In this document: piece after piece, positions 18,297 through 29,881 of the stretch
Numbering within the stretch: the stretch's first letter is position 1
How the letters are laid out: each line of letters opens with the position of its first letter
NCBI GenBank assembly: GCA_012838555.1
Contig: DUOZ01000019.1
Location: 1-32,147, forward strand
DNA: 32,147 bases
Source of the DNA: a bacterium
Lineage (GTDB): Bacteria > Bacillota_I > Bacilli_A > RFN20 > DUOZ01
Reading direction: 5' to 3'
Notes under the pieces: generated by a model
Database searches by the model: none
The model's input: the letters and a program-made list of their open reading frames with translations, nothing else
What the model was told of the DNA's origin: nothing
Position numbers and translations under genes: made by a program

Positions 18297-18521
18297 TTAT
18301 GATTTGCGTTTTTCAATTGCAACTATAACATCTTTGACGGTTTTAAATGAATTTAGTTCATCATTTTCAAAAGACACATCATACATGTCTTCAATCTCTA
18401 ATACAATTTCAACCAAGTCTAAAGAGTCAACTCCCAAACTTCTTAAATTTGAATTTTCATCAATATCAACATCGCCTATTTTTTTACTTAATAATTTTTT
18501 AAATTCCTCTAAATATTTCAT
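18297..18521 (-). CDS. acpP: Acyl carrier protein
   Basis: MKYLEEFKKLLSKKIGDVDIDENSNLRSLGVDSLDLVEIVLEIEDMYDVSFENDELNSFKTVKDVIVAIEKRKS; GVDSLDLVE phosphopantetheine site; start at 18521 from GAGGTG spacing. Confidence 0.95.
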   Translation of the reverse strand: MKYLEEFKKLLSKKIGDVDIDENSNLRSLGVDSLDLVEIVLEIEDMYDVSFENDELNSFKTVKDVIVAIEKRKS

Positions 18522-18682
18522 ATTTATACACCTCATTAAGATTATACACTTAGTTATAAGAACATTCTAGTATTTTTGCTTAACCTAACACCTTAAATCC
18601 ACTTTATCCCAATAAAAATGTTCTAGATTAGGGATTTTCCACATAATAAAGTTTAATAATCATTAACATCAAACTCTAGATT

Positions 18683-18775: not shown

Positions 18776-18846
18776 TCTCTATTCTATATCCTCTTTTAGG
18801 CATTAATTATAATATTAGTATAAACTACATTATCAATTTAACCAAA

Positions 18847-18896
18847 ATAAAAGAGGCTGTGATTGATTACTTAATAATCATTTATAGCCTCTTTTA
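18847..18896 (-). terminator. Terminator at end of pilus-like operon
   Basis: AAAAGAGGCT...AGCCTCTTTT inverted repeat with minus-strand TTTTATTTT. Confidence 0.7.
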
Positions 18897-18900
18897 GATC

Positions 18901-19056
18901 CTATGGTAATTCTTCTGGTTGTTCAAGAATAGTTGAAATCTGGTTAGTAATATCATTCCAAGTATCAACAAAGAAATCGCTGACTGTAGAATTAAGAGCG
19001 ATAAAAATACCAAGAACAAGAATTACGCCAAGAATTTGCGCCTTGAATTCTGACAC
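18901..19056 (-). CDS. Small single-TM pilin-like protein (51 aa, GTG start; not in ORF track)
   Basis: Minus strand: AAGGAGGTGAAACTGA then GTG TCA GAA...; M(V)SEFKAQILGVILVLGIFIALNSTVSDFFVDTWNDITNQISTILEQPEELP*. Strong SD and operon position. Confidence 0.75.
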   Translation of the reverse strand: MSEFKAQILGVILVLGIFIALNSTVSDFFVDTWNDITNQISTILEQPEELP

Positions 19057-19070
19057 TCAGTTTCACCTCC

Positions 19071-19415
19071 TTATAAAATTAATATTTTTTTATACAACGT
19101 TATATTAGGAACACCGATTTCCCAAATAGCTCCTAATAAGGGTGTGTATGTCGCAGTAATTTTAATCTCCAATAAATTATCCTCATCAATCAAGCAATCT
19201 TTGTTTAAGCAAGTTAATTTTGCATTCATATCATCTTCTACCATTTGGATTAATTCTTCAGTTACCATTTTATCTTTTTCAATTTGCCTTACAATATAAA
19301 CACTTTGAGCTGATAACTTAGTAAATGTAATTTGGTAGCCAATTAAATCTCCACAAAATAACATCGATTGAATAAAAAGGATGCATGATAAAACTAAACT
19401 TACTTTATTACCCAT
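19071..19415 (-). CDS. TadE-like / pseudopilin-like membrane-anchored protein
   Basis: Single N-terminal hydrophobic helix, small extracytoplasmic domain, inside tad-like operon; 8-bp overlap with upstream gene. Confidence 0.55.
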   Translation of the reverse strand: MGNKVSLVLSCILFIQSMLFCGDLIGYQITFTKLSAQSVYIVRQIEKDKMVTEELIQMVEDDMNAKLTCLNKDCLIDEDNLLEIKITATYTPLLGAIWEIGVPNITLYKKILIL

Positions 19416-20094
19416 TAATTAACACCGCCAATGATTGAAGAATACCTAATACTAAAGCAAATGTGATTACTACTGTTGCAATAAGTGGAAAGATGCCAAA
19501 TATATCAAGTTTTGATGATTGATGTTCGATATACTCATCAATTGTTTGAGATCGTAGTTTCTCTAACAACGGGCTAAATTTTTCTAATAACATGGCATCA
19601 TAACCACTGTTTTCTAATTGATATAACAACAAACATATTTGACCAATAATTTGAGAACTAAAATTATTTGAAAAGTTCACATATGGTGTTACACTTTTAT
19701 CCTCATCAATTTCTTTAATTAAAGTTTCTACATTGTCTTTTATCGACTCATCTACATATTCTAGAGATGTTTTAATAGCTTGATATAGATTAAACTTATT
19801 TTCTAGAAAAACTAAAATATAACCAAAGAAACTAATGAATGATAATTGTGCAGTTGATGCTTTTTGTTTAAACTTGCTTTTTAAATCCCAATATTCAAAT
19901 TTAGAAATTAATAATCCTAATACTATAACGAAAATTGATAAGTAAACTTTTTTAGAATAAAAGTATAGAATTATTGATATGATAAATGATGCTATCAATG
20001 TATAAGTCCGCTTCTTATTTATTAGGTTTAAATCAACATCTAATGATTGACACAAAAACTCCAAATCTTTCTCTTTAAACATTAGATGTCCCAT
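19408..20094 (-). CDS. TadC-like type II secretion/pilus inner membrane protein
   Basis: T2SSF-like layout: cytoplasmic helical region between TM pairs (NKFNLYQAIKTSLEYVDESIKDNVETLIKEID...) with C-terminal TM; adjacent to TadB-like gene. Confidence 0.7.
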   Translation of the reverse strand: MGHLMFKEKDLEFLCQSLDVDLNLINKKRTYTLIASFIISIILYFYSKKVYLSIFVIVLGLLISKFEYWDLKSKFKQKASTAQLSFISFFGYILVFLENKFNLYQAIKTSLEYVDESIKDNVETLIKEIDEDKSVTPYVNFSNNFSSQIIGQICLLLYQLENSGYDAMLLEKFSPLLEKLRSQTIDEYIEHQSSKLDIFGIFPLIATVVITFALVLGILQSLAVLING

Positions 20095-20795
20095 CCTTTT
20101 TCCATGTAATAGTCACCATATCGTTTAAAATATAAACCATAACTCAATATCAATATTAGGAATAAAAAGGCAACTGCATATTTAAAAAGGACACTATGAT
20201 TTAGAACCATCATATAATAAGCTTCTAAACCTAATCTTAAATATAAGAGACTAACCAAACTAAAGATCCAAACTGTCGAAAATTCTCTAAGTTTTCTCTT
20301 CTTAATTGAAGTAAATAAATAAGCACTTGATTTTAAATGGTTGACTTGATTAATTAATTGGCTTGATAAATTTAAGATATCTCCACCTTGTTCAATATAA
20401 ACTTTTAATTCAGTAACAAATACATACATCAATGGTTGATTTATTAAATAGGATATTTGTTCAATCTTTTCAATCGCACTTTCAAAAGTATCATTACTGA
20501 TTATCTCCTGGATTTGTTTTGAACAACAGAAACTAATATTAGTTAAAGCTTCCTCAAGAGATGGTGTAACACTTAGTTGTACAGTTAAACTATTAATAAA
20601 TTGATTAGCCTCATCTACAGAAATTAAGTAATTTTTAGCATTTTTATAATTAGGCATTATAACCTTCGCAAAAATAAGAAGTGATAATAATGATAAAATT
20701 AAGGATACTAACATATCTTTAGTAAAATAAACAATAACAATAAAACTGATATCAAAGATAAGAAAAGATATTATGTATTTAATGAAGCCTTTCAT
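20082..20795 (-). CDS. TadB-like type II secretion/pilus inner membrane protein
   Basis: TM pairs plus SVTPSLEEALTNIS...IEQISYLINQPLMYVFVTELKVYIEQGGDILNLSSQLINQVN, typical of T2SSF domains (GG/GD motif). Confidence 0.75.
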   Translation of the reverse strand: MKGFIKYIISFLIFDISFIVIVYFTKDMLVSLILSLLSLLIFAKVIMPNYKNAKNYLISVDEANQFINSLTVQLSVTPSLEEALTNISFCCSKQIQEIISNDTFESAIEKIEQISYLINQPLMYVFVTELKVYIEQGGDILNLSSQLINQVNHLKSSAYLFTSIKKRKLREFSTVWIFSLVSLLYLRLGLEAYYMMVLNHSVLFKYAVAFLFLILILSYGLYFKRYGDYYMEKGWDI

Positions 20796-21872
20796 TTATG
20801 CCTCCTTATACCATCTTGGATTTATATTTAACTTATTAGCTAAGTTTAATGACAAATCTTTAAACATATACTCATTTTGATTATTTTGATATATTAAATT
20901 AAATTTGATTTCATTATTATCTTTATAAACTTCAACAATTTCTGTAATAGTTCTTTGAAATGAACCATTAACTTTCACTCTTTTTGTTTGGATTATAATA
21001 GAGAAATAATCTGCTAAAATAGAGTGAAGTTCAGTTCTACTTAATTTGATTTTACTTTTTCCCATATTGTAAATTCGATCAAAAACAGTGAATGGGTCAC
21101 TAGCATGGAGAGTTGTAATTAAAGGATGTCCAGTTGATACTGACTCTATCATTTCAATTACTTCTTCTCCTCTAGTTTCAGCAACAATTAACCAGTCAGG
21201 TTGATTTCTTAATGCAACTTTTACTAAATCTGAAATACCTATGGTATTACTTGTAATCCAAGTTGTAATATCATGATTAGGAAATAACTCTTTTAAACAT
21301 GTTTCATAACTATCTTCTATTAAAATGATTTTTTCATCTTGATCTATTAAGGAAACCAAATATTTTTGTAACTCAGTTTTACCACTACCTGTAGGTCCAC
21401 TTATTAATATTGATAAATGAGATTTAATGAACCTATTAAGTAATCTAAAAACTTCTTTTTTACAAACTTTGGTATCATTTTCTTTTATTCTTAACTTTTC
21501 ATACCTTATTCTTAACGAAAAGGTAATGACAGGTTGATTTTTACTTTTTGCTATACTAGTATAAACGGCACTTAATCGATATCGATCAAACGAAACATCT
21601 AGAATTGGATTCATATGATTGAAATTTTTACCAAGTAAATTAGCTATTTGTCGAGTAAAATTTAGGACTTCTGAGGTTGATAAGTTTAAACCATCAACCC
21701 TATATCTACCGTTAAAATTGTCAAAGATATATAAATCTTTACCGTTAAATGATATATCTGTAATATCTAAATCTGAATTGATAAATCGAGAAAGAAAGGA
21801 TTTATTTAGAAATGTTAATAAACTTTTAGAGACTTCACTTAAATTTTCATCATTTAAATTCTTATTAATCAT
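20796..21872 (-). CDS. TadA/CpaF-like secretion ATPase
   Basis: Walker A ISGPTGSGKTELQKYL, Asp box LIEDSYE, DWLIVAETRGEEVIEMIESVSTGHPLITTLHASDPFTVFDRI. Confidence 0.92.
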   Translation of the reverse strand: MINKNLNDENLSEVSKSLLTFLNKSFLSRFINSDLDITDISFNGKDLYIFDNFNGRYRVDGLNLSTSEVLNFTRQIANLLGKNFNHMNPILDVSFDRYRLSAVYTSIAKSKNQPVITFSLRIRYEKLRIKENDTKVCKKEVFRLLNRFIKSHLSILISGPTGSGKTELQKYLVSLIDQDEKIILIEDSYETCLKELFPNHDITTWITSNTIGISDLVKVALRNQPDWLIVAETRGEEVIEMIESVSTGHPLITTLHASDPFTVFDRIYNMGKSKIKLSRTELHSILADYFSIIIQTKRVKVNGSFQRTITEIVEVYKDNNEIKFNLIYQNNQNEYMFKDLSLNLANKLNINPRWYKEA

Positions 21873-22284
21873 AACTACTTAATTGATTTTCTTTAATTTC
21901 ATAACGTATATACTTTTCGAGTGGGGCTATATAGGGAATAATTTGTGATTTAATTTTAATTTGAACTCCATTGCAACTTAAGTTAATATTGTTACACTCT
22001 TTTTCTAATGGAGCATTATAATAGGCAAATGAAACTTCTACAACACCTAGATAAAAATCTAAATTACTTTGAAATTGCTTTAAATATAATGTCTCAAACT
22101 TCTCTTGATCAATATATAAATCATCAATGTCATTAACTTCATCAAACTTCTTTACGATACATAATTTCAAAGTGCTTTTTGAGACAGAATCAATCGCACT
22201 TTCAATACTTGATAAGGCGCTTGAATAGAAAAAATTAGTCACGATAACATTAATAAAGAGAAAGAATGGTAAAATATAATACAT
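21865..22284 (-). CDS. TadE-like membrane protein
   Basis: N-terminal TM (MYYILPFFLFINVIVTNFFYSSAL) then extracytoplasmic domain with two Cys; translationally coupled to the ATPase gene. Confidence 0.5.
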   Translation of the reverse strand: MYYILPFFLFINVIVTNFFYSSALSSIESAIDSVSKSTLKLCIVKKFDEVNDIDDLYIDQEKFETLYLKQFQSNLDFYLGVVEVSFAYYNAPLEKECNNINLSCNGVQIKIKSQIIPYIAPLEKYIRYEIKENQLSSYD

Positions 22285-23315
22285 TATTTTAAATCACCTA
22301 CTTTATAGGATTTGTAATTAAGAAGATCTAAAGGTTCATTCGTTTGATAAATACAGTATCTTGATGTTGAACAACTGTCTCCTATTTCAAATGTGGGAGG
22401 TTTAGGTTTACTGTTATTAATATAAATAAAATTATATTGGTAATTGATTTTATTAACCCCTTGACCGAAAATTTCAAGAGTAACATATGTACTTTTGGTT
22501 TCACTGCTTAATTGTAATTCACTAACTTCTTTTAATTTTCCATCTACATTTTCTTTATAATAAATGTCATTTTCTTCATCATAATAAGTGCTTCTTAACA
22601 TGAAACCACTATAAAGATTTCCTTTATTTTTATAATCTAAAGTGAAACAATAACCTTTATTATCATCATATAAACTAATATCTCCATTAAAACCTTCACT
22701 GAAGCAGACTTGGGCACTATCGAAATTTTTCGTACCAACTCTACCTTCTGTGTAGTATTTAAAACTCCATTTTTCAAAGTCAACAATCGATTCACTAAAT
22801 AATGAGTCAATTTCTAATAGTGCACCAAAGTCTATATGCTCATAACTAACTTCAAGAGTTTGAGCATTATAATCAGCTTTTATTTCGCTGATATAACTGA
22901 AGGTGTACTGATTTAAGGTTATTACTTTATCTTTTTGTGGAAAATTATAAATCTCAAAGGTAATTTGTTTTATCGGATCTTCTTTATCATCTGTATATAC
23001 AATAACAGATAAATATCTGCTATCCCCTTTAAAATTATCTAATTCAACCTTCCTTGTACAATTATAGCGTAACCTATCATTTTGTTTTTCGTATAACTGC
23101 TCTAATTCACTACCATTTATAACGCCCACAGTATAATCAAATAAACTATCTTTATGAATATCATTATTTGCTAATCTGATTTCAACAACTGGTTTCATTT
23201 TATAATAATCTAAATAATAAGTAACTGTAAAATCCCAATTAGTTTGACTAGCTTGAATTTTCATTGAAGGGAAAAAAGCAACTATCATTGTAAAAATGGT
23301 TAATATATAGAGCAA
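22284..23315 (-). CDS. Secreted/anchored protein of unknown function in pilus operon
   Basis: N-terminal signal-like helix MLYILTIFTMIVAFFPSMKIQA followed by a hydrophilic beta-rich domain; overlaps next gene by 1 nt. Confidence 0.65.
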   Translation of the reverse strand: MLYILTIFTMIVAFFPSMKIQASQTNWDFTVTYYLDYYKMKPVVEIRLANNDIHKDSLFDYTVGVINGSELEQLYEKQNDRLRYNCTRKVELDNFKGDSRYLSVIVYTDDKEDPIKQITFEIYNFPQKDKVITLNQYTFSYISEIKADYNAQTLEVSYEHIDFGALLEIDSLFSESIVDFEKWSFKYYTEGRVGTKNFDSAQVCFSEGFNGDISLYDDNKGYCFTLDYKNKGNLYSGFMLRSTYYDEENDIYYKENVDGKLKEVSELQLSSETKSTYVTLEIFGQGVNKINYQYNFIYINNSKPKPPTFEIGDSCSTSRYCIYQTNEPLDLLNYKSYKVGDLK

Positions 23316-23327
23316 TCTTACACCTCC

Positions 23328-23669
23328 TTATTCATAATAAAATAACATTTTTTTAATCGCTCTATTTTTAATACGATAATAAGTACTCCTAGAATATAAT
23401 CCAATCCACCAGTTTTCATGGACTCTTTCATAAAAATCATTTTTTATGATTAATTTTTCATCTTCTTCTAAAGTATTTAAAAATGATTCAAACATTATTT
23501 TAAAGTTATGATACTTTTTTATTTTGTCTTCATCCGTCTTGTCGTTTATAACGTACACTTTCTTATCATATAAATCAGCATAAATACATGCTTTTTTATA
23601 AAGCTGGACTATCTCATTTAATCTTTCTGCATCATCTTTTATTGAATTTCTTTTTAAACTTTTTTTCAA
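23328..23669 (-). CDS. Small regulator-like protein, sigma-region-4/MG284-MPN403-like (tentative)
   Basis: C-terminal EEDEKLIIKNDFYERVHENWWIGLYSRSTYYRIKNRAIKKMLFYY resembles a sigma-4/ArpU-type helix-turn-helix; first gene of the operon. Confidence 0.5.
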   Translation of the reverse strand: MKKSLKRNSIKDDAERLNEIVQLYKKACIYADLYDKKVYVINDKTDEDKIKKYHNFKIMFESFLNTLEEDEKLIIKNDFYERVHENWWIGLYSRSTYYRIKNRAIKKMLFYYE

Positions 23670-23843: not shown

Positions 23844-23866
23844 TAAAAAAAACCGATTTCTCGGTT
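23844..23866 (-). terminator. Rho-independent terminator overlapping the 3' end of the DUF3784-like gene
   Basis: AACCGA-TTTC-TCGGTT with minus-strand T8. Confidence 0.75.
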
Positions 23867-24297: not shown

Positions 24298-24864
24298 TTA
24301 ACGATTAGCATTGAATTTTTTTACATAATAGTCATATAATTCTCTAAACCTGTTAAAGTGAACGATTTCTCTTTGTCTTAAAAATAATAAAGGTTGAATT
24401 ACACTCACATCATCGGTAAGGTGAATTAAATTTTCATAAACTGCTCTTGCTTTTTCTTCTGCAGCCATATTCTCAGCTATATCAGCAAGAGGATCACCTA
24501 ATGAGTTAATATATGCTGTTGTAAATGGATTACCAGAGGCATCTTTAGGAAATACCGATTTACCATGATCAGTATAATAAGCACCTAATCCGGCTTCTCT
24601 TAATTCTTCTGGAGTAGCATCCTTAACTAATTGATATACCATTGTACTAATCATTTCAACATGGCCTAACTCTTCAGTACCTATATCAGTTAATAATGCT
24701 TTACCATAATCATCAGGCATAGTATACCTTTGTGTTAAATATCTTAATGCTGCAGCTAATTCACCATTTGGACCACCATATTGTGATAGAAGAAATTTTG
24801 CCATCTTCAAGTCTTTCTTCTTAATATTAATAGGATACTCTAATTTTTTATCATAAATCCACAT
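24298..24864 (-). CDS. cotJC: CotJC-like manganese catalase family protein
   Basis: MWIYDKKLEYPINIKKKDLKMAKFLLSQYGGPNGELAAALRYLTQRYTMPDDYGKALLTDIGTEELGHVEMISTMVYQL; metal ligands GTEELGHVE. Confidence 0.95.
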   Translation of the reverse strand: MWIYDKKLEYPINIKKKDLKMAKFLLSQYGGPNGELAAALRYLTQRYTMPDDYGKALLTDIGTEELGHVEMISTMVYQLVKDATPEELREAGLGAYYTDHGKSVFPKDASGNPFTTAYINSLGDPLADIAENMAAEEKARAVYENLIHLTDDVSVIQPLLFLRQREIVHFNRFRELYDYYVKKFNANR

Positions 24865-24878
24865 CTATAGGTCCCTCC

Positions 24879-25262
24879 TTAATTTTCCCAAGGCCATGGA
24901 CCTTTGATCCATTCCCAAGGTAATTTATCAAATGCTTCGCTTTTTAAAGTAAACGGTCCATATTTACTTTCATAATCTTTCATTAAAGGACGTAACTCGT
25001 TTTGATATTTTTTAAATAGTTCAAAAGCTTCGTTACTATTTGGATGAGTATCAAGGTAAAGACCTAAATCAATTAAGTTAAAGACAAGAGCCTGGATTCT
25101 TAAAAGTGCTCTAGTTTGCTCATTACCTGCTTCAATTGCCATTGGGCGGTAATGTTCATATTGTTCATAAGTACGACTTTCAATGTTCCCTTTAAAAAAG
25201 GCTTCAAATAGCGGGTAAAAACTCGCAGCCATCATTTTTTCTTGATCGTCTTTTGAAAACAT
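24879..25262 (-). CDS. cotJB: CotJB-like protein with an N-terminal extension
   Basis: ALLRIQALVFNLIDLGLYLDTHPNSNEAFELFKKYQNELRPLMKDYESKYGPFT...WIKGPWPWEN is CotJB-like and lies directly upstream of cotJC; residues 1-45 are extra. Confidence 0.85.
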   Translation of the reverse strand: MFSKDDQEKMMAASFYPLFEAFFKGNIESRTYEQYEHYRPMAIEAGNEQTRALLRIQALVFNLIDLGLYLDTHPNSNEAFELFKKYQNELRPLMKDYESKYGPFTLKSEAFDKLPWEWIKGPWPWEN

Positions 25263-25312: not shown

Positions 25313-25375
25313 GAAAAAGCCCATTTGAGTTTTTTCGTTGACTTATTTCACAAGTAATAAACTCTTATGGGCTTT
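25313..25375 (-). terminator. Terminator overlapping the stop codon of the ProRS-like gene
   Basis: AAGCCCAT...ATGGGCTT long-loop inverted repeat; minus-strand TTTTTC tail; the gene's TAA at 25343 lies in the loop. Confidence 0.6.
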
Positions 25376-26455
25376 CTTTTTGCATACTAGACATTCTTTA
25401 TTAGAAACATTTTGATTAAAGGGAAGATATATCTTATTTGGCTTAATTTTTCCTTTTAATTCATTTAAACATTTTTTATCTCCACACCATGTAATTCTTA
25501 AATATGGATTCTCATCAATGATTGGTAAATCTTTAATAGTAGTAATTGATTTAAGAGATTTTTTTAATGCTCTTTTATACATCTCTCCAGTTTGATTTTT
25601 TATAATAGTTTTAAACTCTGTTATCAGATTATTTTCATTTATATGGTAAATTTCTTCTAAATAATTATCAATAATACTTACTGTTTTATCTCTTACTTCC
25701 TTCTTAGATATCCTGACAACAAAGGGAATTCCTTCTTTTAATTCATTAAATTTACCATTTTTATACTCCGATGAATTTATTATTTTTACTGGTAGACTTG
25801 CATTATTAAATATTGAATCAATATGATGAACATAATCCATTATACCAATTCTTTCTGGTTTAACTGGTTTAATAATTGCAACTAATTGTGAAATCGTATG
25901 CGGTAAGATTAATTCCTTTTTACTGTTAAGATGGACAATGAGTAAAGATAAAAATGCCCTTAAAAAAATCTGACCTTCTAAAATGACTAAGTCATTAATT
26001 TGTGAAACTTTAAAGTTAGAAAATTCAATATTTTTACCATTAATTACTGTATATTGAATATATTCATTATCATTAATACTTTTAACATTAAATAAAGGTA
26101 CATTTAAAATAGCTTTAGAAACCTCAACTATTACCTCCATTAAGGAAAATAAATGCATCCTAGCTTTTTCAAAAGTTAAAAAACTACCAATAAAGGAAAA
26201 TAAATGTTCTTCTAATAATGAATTCGCTTGATAAAATAAAACATTAACATTAGTTTGCATGTGACTTAATTTTAGATTATTTACATTTGTTTTAATTTCA
26301 AAAATATCTCTAACCTTCAAACCTTTACTTAATTTATTGTAATAAATATTGTGAATTTGAATTAAGGTTTCCTTATAAACAATTTCATTATCAATTAAAT
26401 TTATTAAGTTCGCTTTATTTAAATATTTCAATAAAGTTTTACTCATATATATCAT
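25343..26455 (-). CDS. Prolyl-tRNA synthetase-like protein, apparently catalytically degenerate (370 aa)
   Basis: Anticodon-binding-like block LILPHTISQLVAIIKPVKPERI...KNGKFNELKEGIPFVVRISKKEVRDKTVSIIDN, and C-terminal zinc-domain-like block LRITWCGDKKCLNELKGKIKPNKIYLPFNQNVSNKECLVCKKKAHK. These align by eye with the archaeal/eukaryotic-type ProRS C-terminus (LVLPPRLAPIQVVIVPI...[25 protein letters not shown]...FHCGDKACERLIQ...CVPFEAE...GFCVRCGRPSA). Class II motifs 1-3 not recognisable. Confidence 0.7.
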   Translation of the reverse strand: MIYMSKTLLKYLNKANLINLIDNEIVYKETLIQIHNIYYNKLSKGLKVRDIFEIKTNVNNLKLSHMQTNVNVLFYQANSLLEEHLFSFIGSFLTFEKARMHLFSLMEVIVEVSKAILNVPLFNVKSINDNEYIQYTVINGKNIEFSNFKVSQINDLVILEGQIFLRAFLSLLIVHLNSKKELILPHTISQLVAIIKPVKPERIGIMDYVHHIDSIFNNASLPVKIINSSEYKNGKFNELKEGIPFVVRISKKEVRDKTVSIIDNYLEEIYHINENNLITEFKTIIKNQTGEMYKRALKKSLKSITTIKDLPIIDENPYLRITWCGDKKCLNELKGKIKPNKIYLPFNQNVSNKECLVCKKKAHKSLLLVK

Positions 26456-28190
26456 TACTTTCTTTATATCTTATTAAATATTGCAATTTTCTTAATGTAA
26501 TTATATCTGCCTTCTCACTTAAATCAGTAGTACTTCCCAAAATTGGACCACAGAAATATTCAATATCACCATTCATTAAAATTTCTACTTCTACTTTATC
26601 ATTAACACCTGTAATAATAACGTTAACATCCTTAGGTAATACCTCGATCATTCTAATAATACTTAATTTGGCCTTTTCATCTTCCTTAATATTTTTATAC
26701 ATCGAAGGTGGAACAATAAAGGCATCAAATAAAGTAAAGAAAGGATGTGTTATCATTTTCATATCTTCATTTACAACTAAGGCAAACTTGATTCCTTGTT
26801 CCTTATAATGTAAAAGTTTAACTCTTAAGTTATCATATGAATTAGACTCAATAGAAAAATCAAAATTAGCAATCGCAAACATTAATGAATGTCTTTGATA
26901 TTTACTAGAAGATACATAAATATCAATTAAAGAAGATATCATATTAACGTCACAAACATACATAAATGTTGAATATCTGCTTGCTTTTTGTTTTAAAATT
27001 GTTTCTAAAGTACTTTTAAAACTTGCTTCAATAAATTCTTTTTCTTCTTTATTCTTAATCGCACATTTCAATGCATCTTCGTAATATTTAAAATGACTAG
27101 AAGCAGATGTTAATTCAATAAAATAATCATTAACTAGACCACTGTATAATGAGAATACATAATAAAAACTTGGAACAAATTCTTGTTTATTAATCATTTG
27201 TTTTAAGGCTTGATAATCTAAATAATTATCGGTATTAACTTTTTCCATCTTTTCATCGTATTCAACAAATTCTTTTTGAATAATATAAATGTTAACTGCA
27301 TGATTATCACATGCTTGAATCGCTTGGTTAATCGCCATATCAACACTAAAAGTAAATCGACCTAAGAATGTCGTACCGGCACAATAATCTACATTAAATT
27401 CTAAGTTTTGATATTTTATCGAATTTCCTAGTTCTTTTTTAATTTTACTCATAAATCGATAAAGTTGTTTCTTCCTAGTTAATCCATGACGGTAAATCCA
27501 TAAATAATCATTATTAACGCTAACAACCGTATTTTCATTGACTAAACTTTTTAATCGTTTTAATAAGGTATCGCGATAATAATAAGCTATTTCATCACTA
27601 TATCGTTCATTAATTTTTTCATATAGTTTCAAATAGATACAAACTAATGAACCAACTGATGTATATGCATCATCACTCATTGATCTAACTATCGCTTTAA
27701 ATGTATCAAAATCAACGACATCATCTACATTGACTTTGTTAATATTACTATCTTTATCTAATGTTAAAACAAAATGTAAAACCTGATTCTTATCATCTTT
27801 ACGTACAAACTTCATATCATAAAAAAAGGCTTTTTTTACATTTTGGTCGATGGCTAATTGTAATTTTAAAACGTCACTTACTGTTTCTTGATTTAAACAA
27901 AGATCGATGTAATTATAAAATAGATTTAACCTTTCACTTGATAATGTTTTCTCAAAATCTTGTAAAGATATCGTTTCAACTTTAATATCATCTTGTCGAT
28001 AAGAAAGAGTGACTTCTTTAGTGTTTAAATCCAATTTAAAATAAATTGTTTTAATCATATTAAAAAAAGTTATATTAAGGTAAAGGGGTTCTCTAACAAA
28101 TGTAACTACAATATAGTAAACTAAATAAAAAGTAACCAAGATTACTATAAATATAAATAAAGTTAGAATGGAGTAACTGTTAATTAGCAT
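26439..28190 (-). CDS. Membrane protein with degenerate GGDEF-like and EAL-like domains
   Basis: N-terminal TM; GGDEF-like ending LEFNVDYCAGTTFLGRFTFSVDMAINQAIQACDNHAVNIYII with NNDYLWIY where GGDEF should be; EAL-like INKQEFVPSFYYVFSLYSGLVNDYFIELT... and C-terminal DAFIVPPSMYKNI...DVNVIITGVNDKVEVEILMNGDIEYFCGPILG, corresponding to the KID..v / viAEGVE / QGYlfgkP region. Confidence 0.65.
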   Translation of the reverse strand: MLINSYSILTLFIFIVILVTFYLVYYIVVTFVREPLYLNITFFNMIKTIYFKLDLNTKEVTLSYRQDDIKVETISLQDFEKTLSSERLNLFYNYIDLCLNQETVSDVLKLQLAIDQNVKKAFFYDMKFVRKDDKNQVLHFVLTLDKDSNINKVNVDDVVDFDTFKAIVRSMSDDAYTSVGSLVCIYLKLYEKINERYSDEIAYYYRDTLLKRLKSLVNENTVVSVNNDYLWIYRHGLTRKKQLYRFMSKIKKELGNSIKYQNLEFNVDYCAGTTFLGRFTFSVDMAINQAIQACDNHAVNIYIIQKEFVEYDEKMEKVNTDNYLDYQALKQMINKQEFVPSFYYVFSLYSGLVNDYFIELTSASSHFKYYEDALKCAIKNKEEKEFIEASFKSTLETILKQKASRYSTFMYVCDVNMISSLIDIYVSSSKYQRHSLMFAIANFDFSIESNSYDNLRVKLLHYKEQGIKFALVVNEDMKMITHPFFTLFDAFIVPPSMYKNIKEDEKAKLSIIRMIEVLPKDVNVIITGVNDKVEVEILMNGDIEYFCGPILGSTTDLSEKADIITLRKLQYLIRYKESNDIYE

Positions 28191-28228
28191 TCTAAATCAC
28201 CTATTAAATAGTATATCACTAAATTAGG

Positions 28229-29881
28229 CTAATTGAGAATTAAATCAATCACTTCTTTGAATTTCCTTACTAAGATTTCGTTATAATCTAAATAAGTTAC
28301 CTCGCACAAACATGGAGAAGGATTTAAATGATTATTACAAGTTTTTATTTCGATTATGTCATTAACATTTATTTTTGCGTAATTATTATCTTTATCTTTA
28401 AATACAATCTTGAAACAATTATCTGTATCTGCCATCTTTTTAATTAATTTAAAAGAATAATCGCTATTTAAAATGATTATTACACGATTATTATAATTAC
28501 AAGTTCCTGCTATTACTTTGTTTTTAGGGACTATAAGTTTATTACTTATAAGATAATATCGAATGATAAAGTCAGAAATAATTAATTTATTATTTAGTAG
28601 AAACGATTTATCAATAATATTATCATGATCATTTTTAATTTCTCTGAAATCAAGAATATCATAATCGAAAACCTGAGATGTAGAGTTAATTGTTTTTGTT
28701 AGTTTTGTAGGAATCGCAAAATAAAGCCCACGAACTTTAAAAACATTATAAGAAGAATATATGAAACCACTAGGAACTATGATTGTAAACATCGTTAACT
28801 CATCATTGCTTATTACATCAATTTTACCACCTAATGAATCAATACATGCTTTAACACCAACAAGTCCAATCCCACTTCCAGAATTAATATCAGGTTTTTC
28901 ATTAGCTGAAACAAAAGGAGTAAAGAGCAAATCATTAAGATTATCTTCTTCTATTTTAACATTTTCATTTTTAAATCTCTTAATCAACTTCTTAAAATCA
29001 ATCGGTCTACCGTCGTTAATGATTTCAATATGTAAATAATTATCAACTTCATAGAAATTTAAATATAAATTACCATAACTGGTTTTATTTTGTGACTTTC
29101 TTTCTTCTAGCGATTCAAAACCATGAACAATATTATTTTTAATAATTTGAGATATTGGATCAATTAATAAGTCAAGTACAACCCGATCAATAGTACAATC
29201 TTGTGCATTAATATGAAGTTTTACTGCTTTTCCACAATCAGCAGCTATAGATTTGGCAATAATATTCATTTTTTTAGTTAATAGGCTTATATGTTCATAT
29301 CTAAAACTGCTTAATTTTGATTGGAAATTATAGAAAAGATTTAACAAGGTGCTACGCTCAATCTCATCCAAATAAATATGATTTTGAATTTTCTCAACAC
29401 TATTTAAAAATTCCTCTAAAAAACTTATTTGGAAAACTAAATTGACTCTTTTTTGTTTACTATTATTAGTGCTAATCCGGTTCACAAAACAATCATTATC
29501 ACTATAAGCTTTTTCTCTTAATAAGTTGATAGATAATAGTTTGTTTAATATATTTTGATAATAATCAACATAGTTAGCCGTATTGTGCGTAATTAAATTT
29601 TCATAAATATTTTGAAAAATATCCAACATCATATTTACTTGTGATGATGAAACATGAATATTTTCCTTAACTAATCTCATTGCTATTTTTTCTAATTCAT
29701 AAGTAATCTTAGCAAGTTCTTTCTCATTATGTGTTAATAATTGGTGCTTTAAAGAATGGATTTTCGTTAGAAAATCAAAATTTAAAAGTGCAATATTTTT
29801 GAATCTAATAGTAGTTAAATCATTTATTATGTCTTCGAGGTTCGACAACATTTCACTTGATATACTAAGATCAACCTCCAT
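28229..29881 (-). CDS. CheA-like histidine kinase (Hpt-like + HATPase + CheW-like regulatory region)
   Basis: Hpt-like LTKIHSLKHQLLTHNEKELAKITYELEKI; N box IIKNNIVHGFESLEERK; INDGRPID; G box SGSGIGLVGVKACIDSLGGKIDVIS; CheW-like start FKVRGLYFAIPTKLTKTI. Confidence 0.8.
   Translation of the reverse strand: MEVDLSISSEMLSNLEDIINDLTTIRFKNIALLNFDFLTKIHSLKHQLLTHNEKELAKITYELEKIAMRLVKENIHVSSSQVNMMLDIFQNIYENLITHNTANYVDYYQNILNKLLSINLLREKAYSDNDCFVNRISTNNSKQKRVNLVFQISFLEEFLNSVEKIQNHIYLDEIERSTLLNLFYNFQSKLSSFRYEHISLLTKKMNIIAKSIAADCGKAVKLHINAQDCTIDRVVLDLLIDPISQIIKNNIVHGFESLEERKSQNKTSYGNLYLNFYEVDNYLHIEIINDGRPIDFKKLIKRFKNENVKIEEDNLNDLLFTPFVSANEKPDINSGSGIGLVGVKACIDSLGGKIDVISNDELTMFTIIVPSGFIYSSYNVFKVRGLYFAIPTKLTKTINSTSQVFDYDILDFREIKNDHDNIIDKSFLLNNKLIISDFIIRYYLISNKLIVPKNKVIAGTCNYNNRVIIILNSDYSFKLIKKMADTDNCFKIVFKDKDNNYAKINVNDIIEIKTCNNHLNPSPCLCEVTYLDYNEILVRKFKEVIDLILN

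Follow-up and report, generated by a model that had tools for sequence, protein, structure and literature searches.

We have identified an operon that probably encodes a reduced filament machine of the Tad lineage (type IVc) in single-membrane, probably walled Bacilli. It is not an ordinary member of the Tad family, since two canonical Tad features, an A24 prepilin peptidase and the Glu5/Tyr6 pair of Flp pilins, were missing. The operon lies in the window, by which we mean the whole 32,147-nucleotide stretch of DNA that was analysed. An earlier note on this DNA had described eight tightly packed genes, and all eight open reading frames were found on the minus strand between positions 18901 and 23669. 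Neighbouring genes overlap by up to 13 bases or stand up to 14 bases apart, and every frame can be read in the standard code without meeting an in-frame TGA. The eight genes form one operon.

The 5' limit of the operon is set by a predicted terminator of the upstream gene (23851-23866, minus strand), which consists of the stem AACCGA..TCGGTT followed by a T run. A promoter-like site was found 5' of REG, the first gene, at positions 23778-23750, but such sites are no commoner than in shuffled sequences and the evidence from it is therefore weak. At the other end, a strong terminator-like hairpin (18838-18900, minus strand, MFE -19.1 kcal/mol, z -5.3, 0 of 200 shuffles) follows P51, the last gene, and marks the putative end of the operon in the window genome. 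Because of this hairpin the adjacent gene on the same strand, which encodes an acyl carrier protein (ACP, 18297-18536, PF00550 2.9e-11), is probably a unit of its own in the window genome.

The 358-residue motor ATPase TadA (20796-21872, minus strand) matched T2SSE (PF00437) in Pfam at 3.2e-29. Amongst the NCBIfam models, the TadA model TIGR03819 (7e-35) and the VirB11 model (about 1e-35) ranked approximately 50 bits over ComGA. When a profile of 20 TadA relatives was compared with the PDB, an archaeal GspE-type ATPase, VirB11 and CpaF scored 110-119 bits, against about 45-59 for PilT/PilF, and the CpaF structures 8rkd and 9e24 were matched at about 1e-30. The earlier note had named a grouping of the ATPase with ComGA or type II secretion as evidence that would speak against its reading. 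We therefore inferred an IQ-TREE phylogeny of 37 sequences, in which the TadA proteins split from ComGA, PilB and PilT with support of 100/100 and the ATPase fell with TadA. The TadA proteins of the window's order formed one clade (97/93) whose sister group included Bacillaceae and family f13. Identity as a competence (ComG) pilus or a type II secretion system was rejected, because the ATPase lies outside the ComGA/PilB/GspE clade of this tree.

The two genes that follow encode the platform membrane proteins, TadB-like (20082-20795, minus strand, 237 amino acids) and TadC-like (19408-20094, minus strand, 228 amino acids). Their profiles matched each other (hhalign 96.9%, E 1.4e-10), and T2SSF (PF00482) was found in 2 of 17 TadC members, with a best value of 2.3e-5. 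Pfam and NCBIfam searches with the single window copies of TadB, TadC, E1, E2, SEC and P51 gave chance-level matches only. By sequence, the operon has two of the features that characterise a Tad (type IVc) system, a predicted motor ATPase in the TadA/CpaF clade and a tandem TadB/TadC platform.

REG (23328-23669, minus strand, 113 amino acids) is a DNA-binding regulator-like protein of the MG284/MPN403 family with a sigma-70 region 4/ArpU-like C-terminus. It matched the NCBIfam model NF045770 with 68.3 bits for a cut-off of 37.3, and most carriers have it at the head of the operon. SEC (22284-23315, minus strand, 343 amino acids), whose position in the operon is conserved among carriers, has an N-terminal hydrophobic helix and all-beta domains and is a candidate tip or surface protein. 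Its AlphaFold2 model (pLDDT 74.4, pTM 0.67) is mainly beta, and a fold search with this model gave no significant match, the best hits being adhesin and Ig-like folds (best E 2.3e-3). E1 (21865-22284, minus strand, 139 amino acids), with one N-terminal membrane helix and a small domain, is minor-pilin-like in layout. The label TadE-like, which the earlier note gave to two proteins, is weaker than stated there. E2 (19071-19415, minus strand, 114 amino acids) is conserved in position, but of its 14 members only 2 matched TadF (PF16964), the better one at 0.0012, and E1, like SEC, had no convincing family match in Pfam. In Myxococcus Kil and other Tad systems, TadE, TadF and TadG form the tip, prime the filament and bear binding domains (PMC12075869); E1, E2 and SEC fit such a role by position and layout. 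No TadZ localisation ATPase was found within the operon.

A search of 58 genomes of the window's order led to the identification of an ATPase match at E < 1e-12 in 24. In 23 of these, all in families f1, f2, f5, f7 and f8, the match is the TadA of the operon, that of genome G057 being divergent; the remaining one, in G008, is PilB-type. The neighbourhoods that we fetched showed the order REG-SEC-E1-TadA-TadB-TadC-E2-P51, followed in most by ACP. We also examined 80 loci from named records, mostly metagenome-assembled genomes of uncultured Bacilli, Erysipelotrichaceae, 'Mollicutes', Candidatus Fiminaster and Candidatus Onthovivens; they were retrieved with an alignment as query, the window TadA alone having given no match against the genome contigs. 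In counts that are lowered by contig ends and a strict detector, these loci contained TadB (76), TadC (75), E2 (69), E1 (68, in each case adjoining TadA), P51 (64), ACP just downstream of the operon (47) and REG (43), and an uninterrupted string of all nine genes was present in 28. Since this gene order recurs at TadA identities of 35-45%, the operon is not a chance arrangement. As far as the literature we searched shows, a Tad-lineage operon has not been described in these lineages.

The earlier note had taken the cell to be Mollicutes-like and wall-less or nearly so. This premise is not supported, as the genome encodes a penicillin-binding transpeptidase (L001 8-1249, PF00905 1.8e-14); moreover, the relatives are uncultured Bacilli, the operon can be read in the standard code and the window has genes for CotJB and a CotJC-type manganese catalase. 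The carriers are single-membrane and probably walled. The lack of a secretin, also claimed earlier, was borne out by a search of the window's own genome, and none of the 58 relatives had RcpC. Secretins are expected in diderms only.

P51 (18901-19056, minus strand, 51 amino acids, starting MSEFKAQILGVILVLG) is the last gene before the terminator and has a strong Shine-Dalgarno sequence (aaggaggtg) 5' of its GTG start. Its size and layout are those of an Flp-like pilin, and it had no match in Pfam. Comparison of 69 distinct homologues revealed a near-invariant N-terminal hexapeptide, MSE(I)K(G/A), with Glu3 in 69, Lys5 in 66 and Gly or Ala at position 6 in 68; Gln7 (61), Leu9 (67) and Phe18 (67) are also conserved, and the start codon lies six residues 5' of position 7 in 67 of the 69. 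The hallmark of Flp pilins is Glu5/Tyr6, that is Glu or Asp at +5 and Tyr at +6 of the prepilin site, according to Imam et al. 2011 (PMC3244431), and in the Caulobacter filament the Glu and Tyr of the pilin make contacts (PMC11067988). In all 69 P51 proteins residue +5 after the possible cut is hydrophobic (I/V/L/M), which indicates that this hallmark is missing. The fixed hexapeptide together with the missing Glu5/Tyr6 suggests that P51 may be used uncleaved.

The absence of a prepilin peptidase, which had been noted for the window, extends to the genome, as a search with PF01478 (A24 peptidases) gave no match anywhere in the window's genome (94.7% complete, 151 contigs). Amongst 395 genomes of the class, 96 had TadC matches, and PF01478 was detected in 2 of 44 TadC carriers of the window's order (G304 and G370) against 46 of 48 carriers in other Bacilli (Fisher p 3e-21, genomes not being independent). 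The same model detected the enzyme in 12 of 14 control genomes, and the archaeal-type peptidase PF06847 gave no match over the cut-off. The contrast between orders does not cleanly show whether the Tad operon requires the enzyme, because PilB/ComGA-type ATPases are present in other orders, where the main role of the A24 enzyme may lie with a second type IV pilus.

The operon shares with the canonical Tad/Flp pilus (Caulobacter cpa, Aggregatibacter tad) the TadA/CpaF-clade ATPase, the tandem TadB/TadC, a very small pilin and putative TadE/F-like minor pilins. It differs in lacking TadV, RcpC, a secretin and, within the operon, TadZ, and in its pilin, which has neither Glu5 nor Tyr6 and begins with a fixed stretch of six residues. 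The tad-like loci of Gram-positive bacteria presented by Imam et al. 2011 (PMC3244431) likewise belong to single-membrane cells and have fewer genes and Flp-like pilins that lack Tyr6; unlike the present operon, however, they mostly include TadV. That paper treats Mollicutes as having no type IV pilus genes, and in its available portion loci of the present lineages are not among the examples. Closer at hand, the Tad-like operons of Bacillaceae and of families f13, f17 and f25 have the same series of a minor-pilin-like gene, TadA, TadB and TadC, with a small pilin near TadC in f17 and f25, the families checked for it. The f17 and f25 operons differ in that an RcpC-like gene lies between the E1-like gene and TadA and nearly all of these genomes have an A24 peptidase, and in the Tad-like operons of other Bacilli we saw neither the REG-SEC start nor the ACP end. 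MSH pili resemble the present system in that their locus has no prepilin peptidase of its own, but in MSH genomes another system always supplies the enzyme (Denise et al. 2019, PMC6668835), whereas none is detectable in the window's genome.

Prepilin cleavage is held to be necessary for type IV filaments, and a locus that has no peptidase gene is taken to rely on an enzyme encoded elsewhere in the same genome (PMC6668835). We infer that no A24 prepilin peptidase is used here. P51 would then either be cut behind residue 6 by an enzyme that is unrelated or very divergent, or polymerise with its N-terminus intact. Cutting by an enzyme outside the known families is favoured by the retained Gly/Ala-Gln site, whereas a putative leader that is conserved and constant in length speaks for a hexapeptide that would never be removed and would itself be functional. 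The peptidase-free reading competes with that of an ordinary Tad pilus whose peptidase is encoded elsewhere and is too divergent to be detected, to which we give slightly less than an even chance. The carrier genomes are mostly metagenome-assembled, and HMM searches could miss a peptidase that has diverged very far; Gly or Ala at position 6, mostly with Gln at 7, is the pattern of a cut site, and after cleavage at that point the window P51 would be 45 residues long, as is the mature Tad pilin of Caulobacter (PMC11067988). On the other hand PF01478 finds the enzyme in nearly all carriers of other orders and in most controls but hardly ever here, and a conserved leader of fixed length is unlike a disposable one.

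As for the machine itself, a TadA hexamer would drive the TadB/TadC platform, which would pull P51 out of the membrane and assemble it into a thin, helical filament. The tip would be formed or decorated by E1, E2 and SEC, in the manner of TadE, TadF and TadG, and the filament would cross the wall without a secretin and serve for attachment to host or neighbour cells. By analogy, adhesion is the most likely use, and we consider it about evenly balanced between right and wrong. At best weak matches of E1, E2 and P51 to known pilin families limit the reading as a filament machine, and a pseudopilus-type secretion device in which P51 is a short membrane piston and SEC the cargo would agree with the signal-like N-terminus of SEC and its place as second gene, with the lack of RcpC and secretin, and with the retention of SEC, E1 and E2 in sister families without the ATPase. 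We regard it as improbable, given that Sec alone could export SEC and that the conserved pilin and its strong ribosome site suggest an abundant product. A DNA-uptake pilus standing in for the missing com pilus appears rather unlikely as well. ComEC is encoded in the window's genome (C30, 1.6e-26), and Micrococcus luteus depends on its Tad locus for transformation (PMC8467076), as Liberibacter reportedly does for DNA uptake (PMC8513845). However, ComEC was found in 18 of 23 TadA-positive and 23 of 35 TadA-negative relatives (p 0.38), five TadA-positive genomes having no ComEC match, and this failure to track TadA within the order argues against a purely DNA-uptake role.

Two families of the same order, f3 and f4, have kept REG-SEC-E1, one membrane protein and E2 but have neither TadA nor P51. 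Their proteins matched those of the full operon in hhalign comparisons (E1 78-90%, E2 96.6%, SEC 62-95%), and the single membrane protein, of about 290-377 amino acids, matched TadB with its N-terminal part (56%) and TadC with its C-terminal part (78.5%). In a PF00437 search almost every f3 genome was without a strong ATPase match.

A still shorter arrangement was found in family f22, whose mycoplasma-type genomes of 0.7-1.0 Mb read in-frame TGA as Trp. Fifteen of 23 inspected loci consist of REG, a protein of about 375 amino acids, a protein of about 140-210 amino acids with one membrane helix, and ACP, which we take to be the arrangement of M. genitalium MG284-MG287. This mycoplasma operon resembles ours in having a REG homologue first, ACP last and, between them, two proteins of similar size and order, but is without TadA, TadB, TadC, E2 and the pilin. 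The mycoplasma REG matched that of the operon (hhalign 98.4%, E 1e-14). For the middle proteins, the score of the approximately 140-residue protein against E1 was over those of all 100 block shuffles, with a low absolute score and a hhalign probability of 1-4%, and larger alignments reduced the hhalign score. The score of the approximately 375-residue protein against SEC was reached by 2-7 of 100 shuffles and is not significant. Its AlphaFold2 model (pLDDT 84) is mainly beta like that of SEC, with no significant fold match in the PDB, and the protein has no obvious signal peptide. A common origin of these middle proteins with SEC and E1 is plausible. A prolyl-tRNA synthetase gene is clear 5' of REG in several mycoplasma loci; we did not count it as added synteny because what lies 1.7 kb upstream in the window is only a ProRS C-terminal-domain protein. 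Nothing relevant to MG284-286 or MPN403-405 turned up in our literature search.

Taken jointly, these observations can be read as a peptidase-free type IV filament in which P51 would keep MSEIKG, with Glu3 and Lys5 replacing Glu5 and the free N-terminus, and as an operon that would have shrunk stepwise to the ATPase-less sisters and then to the mycoplasma REG-SEC-E1-ACP; as a whole we hold this picture to be tentative and somewhat unlikely. With motor, platform and a pilin under selection but the enzyme lacking, this order of gut-type Bacilli makes the cleavage rule directly testable. In addition, the ATPase-less sister operons together with the mycoplasma synteny would offer a first clue to the evolution of uncharacterised genes that very small mycoplasma genomes have retained.

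The window's own genome carries a lone ATPase gene on another contig (locus L001 of contig C137, 1246-2316), which our IQ-TREE phylogeny of motor ATPases places on the PilT/ComGA/PilB side. A PBP transpeptidase is encoded next to it, as is a protein of 403 aa with no match in Pfam. Neither a PilB-type ATPase nor an A24 (prepilin) peptidase was found in this genome. Amongst the operon carriers of the window's order an A24 peptidase was matched only in G304 and G370, and these two matches could represent the enzyme of another pilus or misbinned contigs.

Close to the operon in the window lies a pair of spore-coat-type genes encoding CotJB and a CotJC-type manganese catalase (24298-25262). Upstream of the operon, a 370 aa protein (25343-26455) has the ProRS C-terminal domain (PF09180) as its sole domain, the catalytic domain of prolyl-tRNA synthetase being unmatched. 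Two long genes lie further upstream (26439-29881). One encodes a 583 aa protein that matches nothing in Pfam; the product of the other, 550 aa long, looks CheA/histidine-kinase-like when judged by eye, and the longer frame of this gene contains a single in-frame TGA close to its start.

Two further families of the window's order, f3 and f4, have versions of the operon devoid of both ATPase and pilin (L204 5656-8669, L207 4969-7818, L240, L241 and L243), each with a single TadB-TadC-like membrane protein. The mycoplasma-type loci (L215, L218, L220, L224-L234 and L239) hold an operon of their own type, which consists of REG, a ~375 aa protein, a ~140 aa protein and the acyl carrier protein, an order that is kept across genomes reading TGA as Trp, and in several mycoplasma loci a full ProRS lies immediately upstream of REG.
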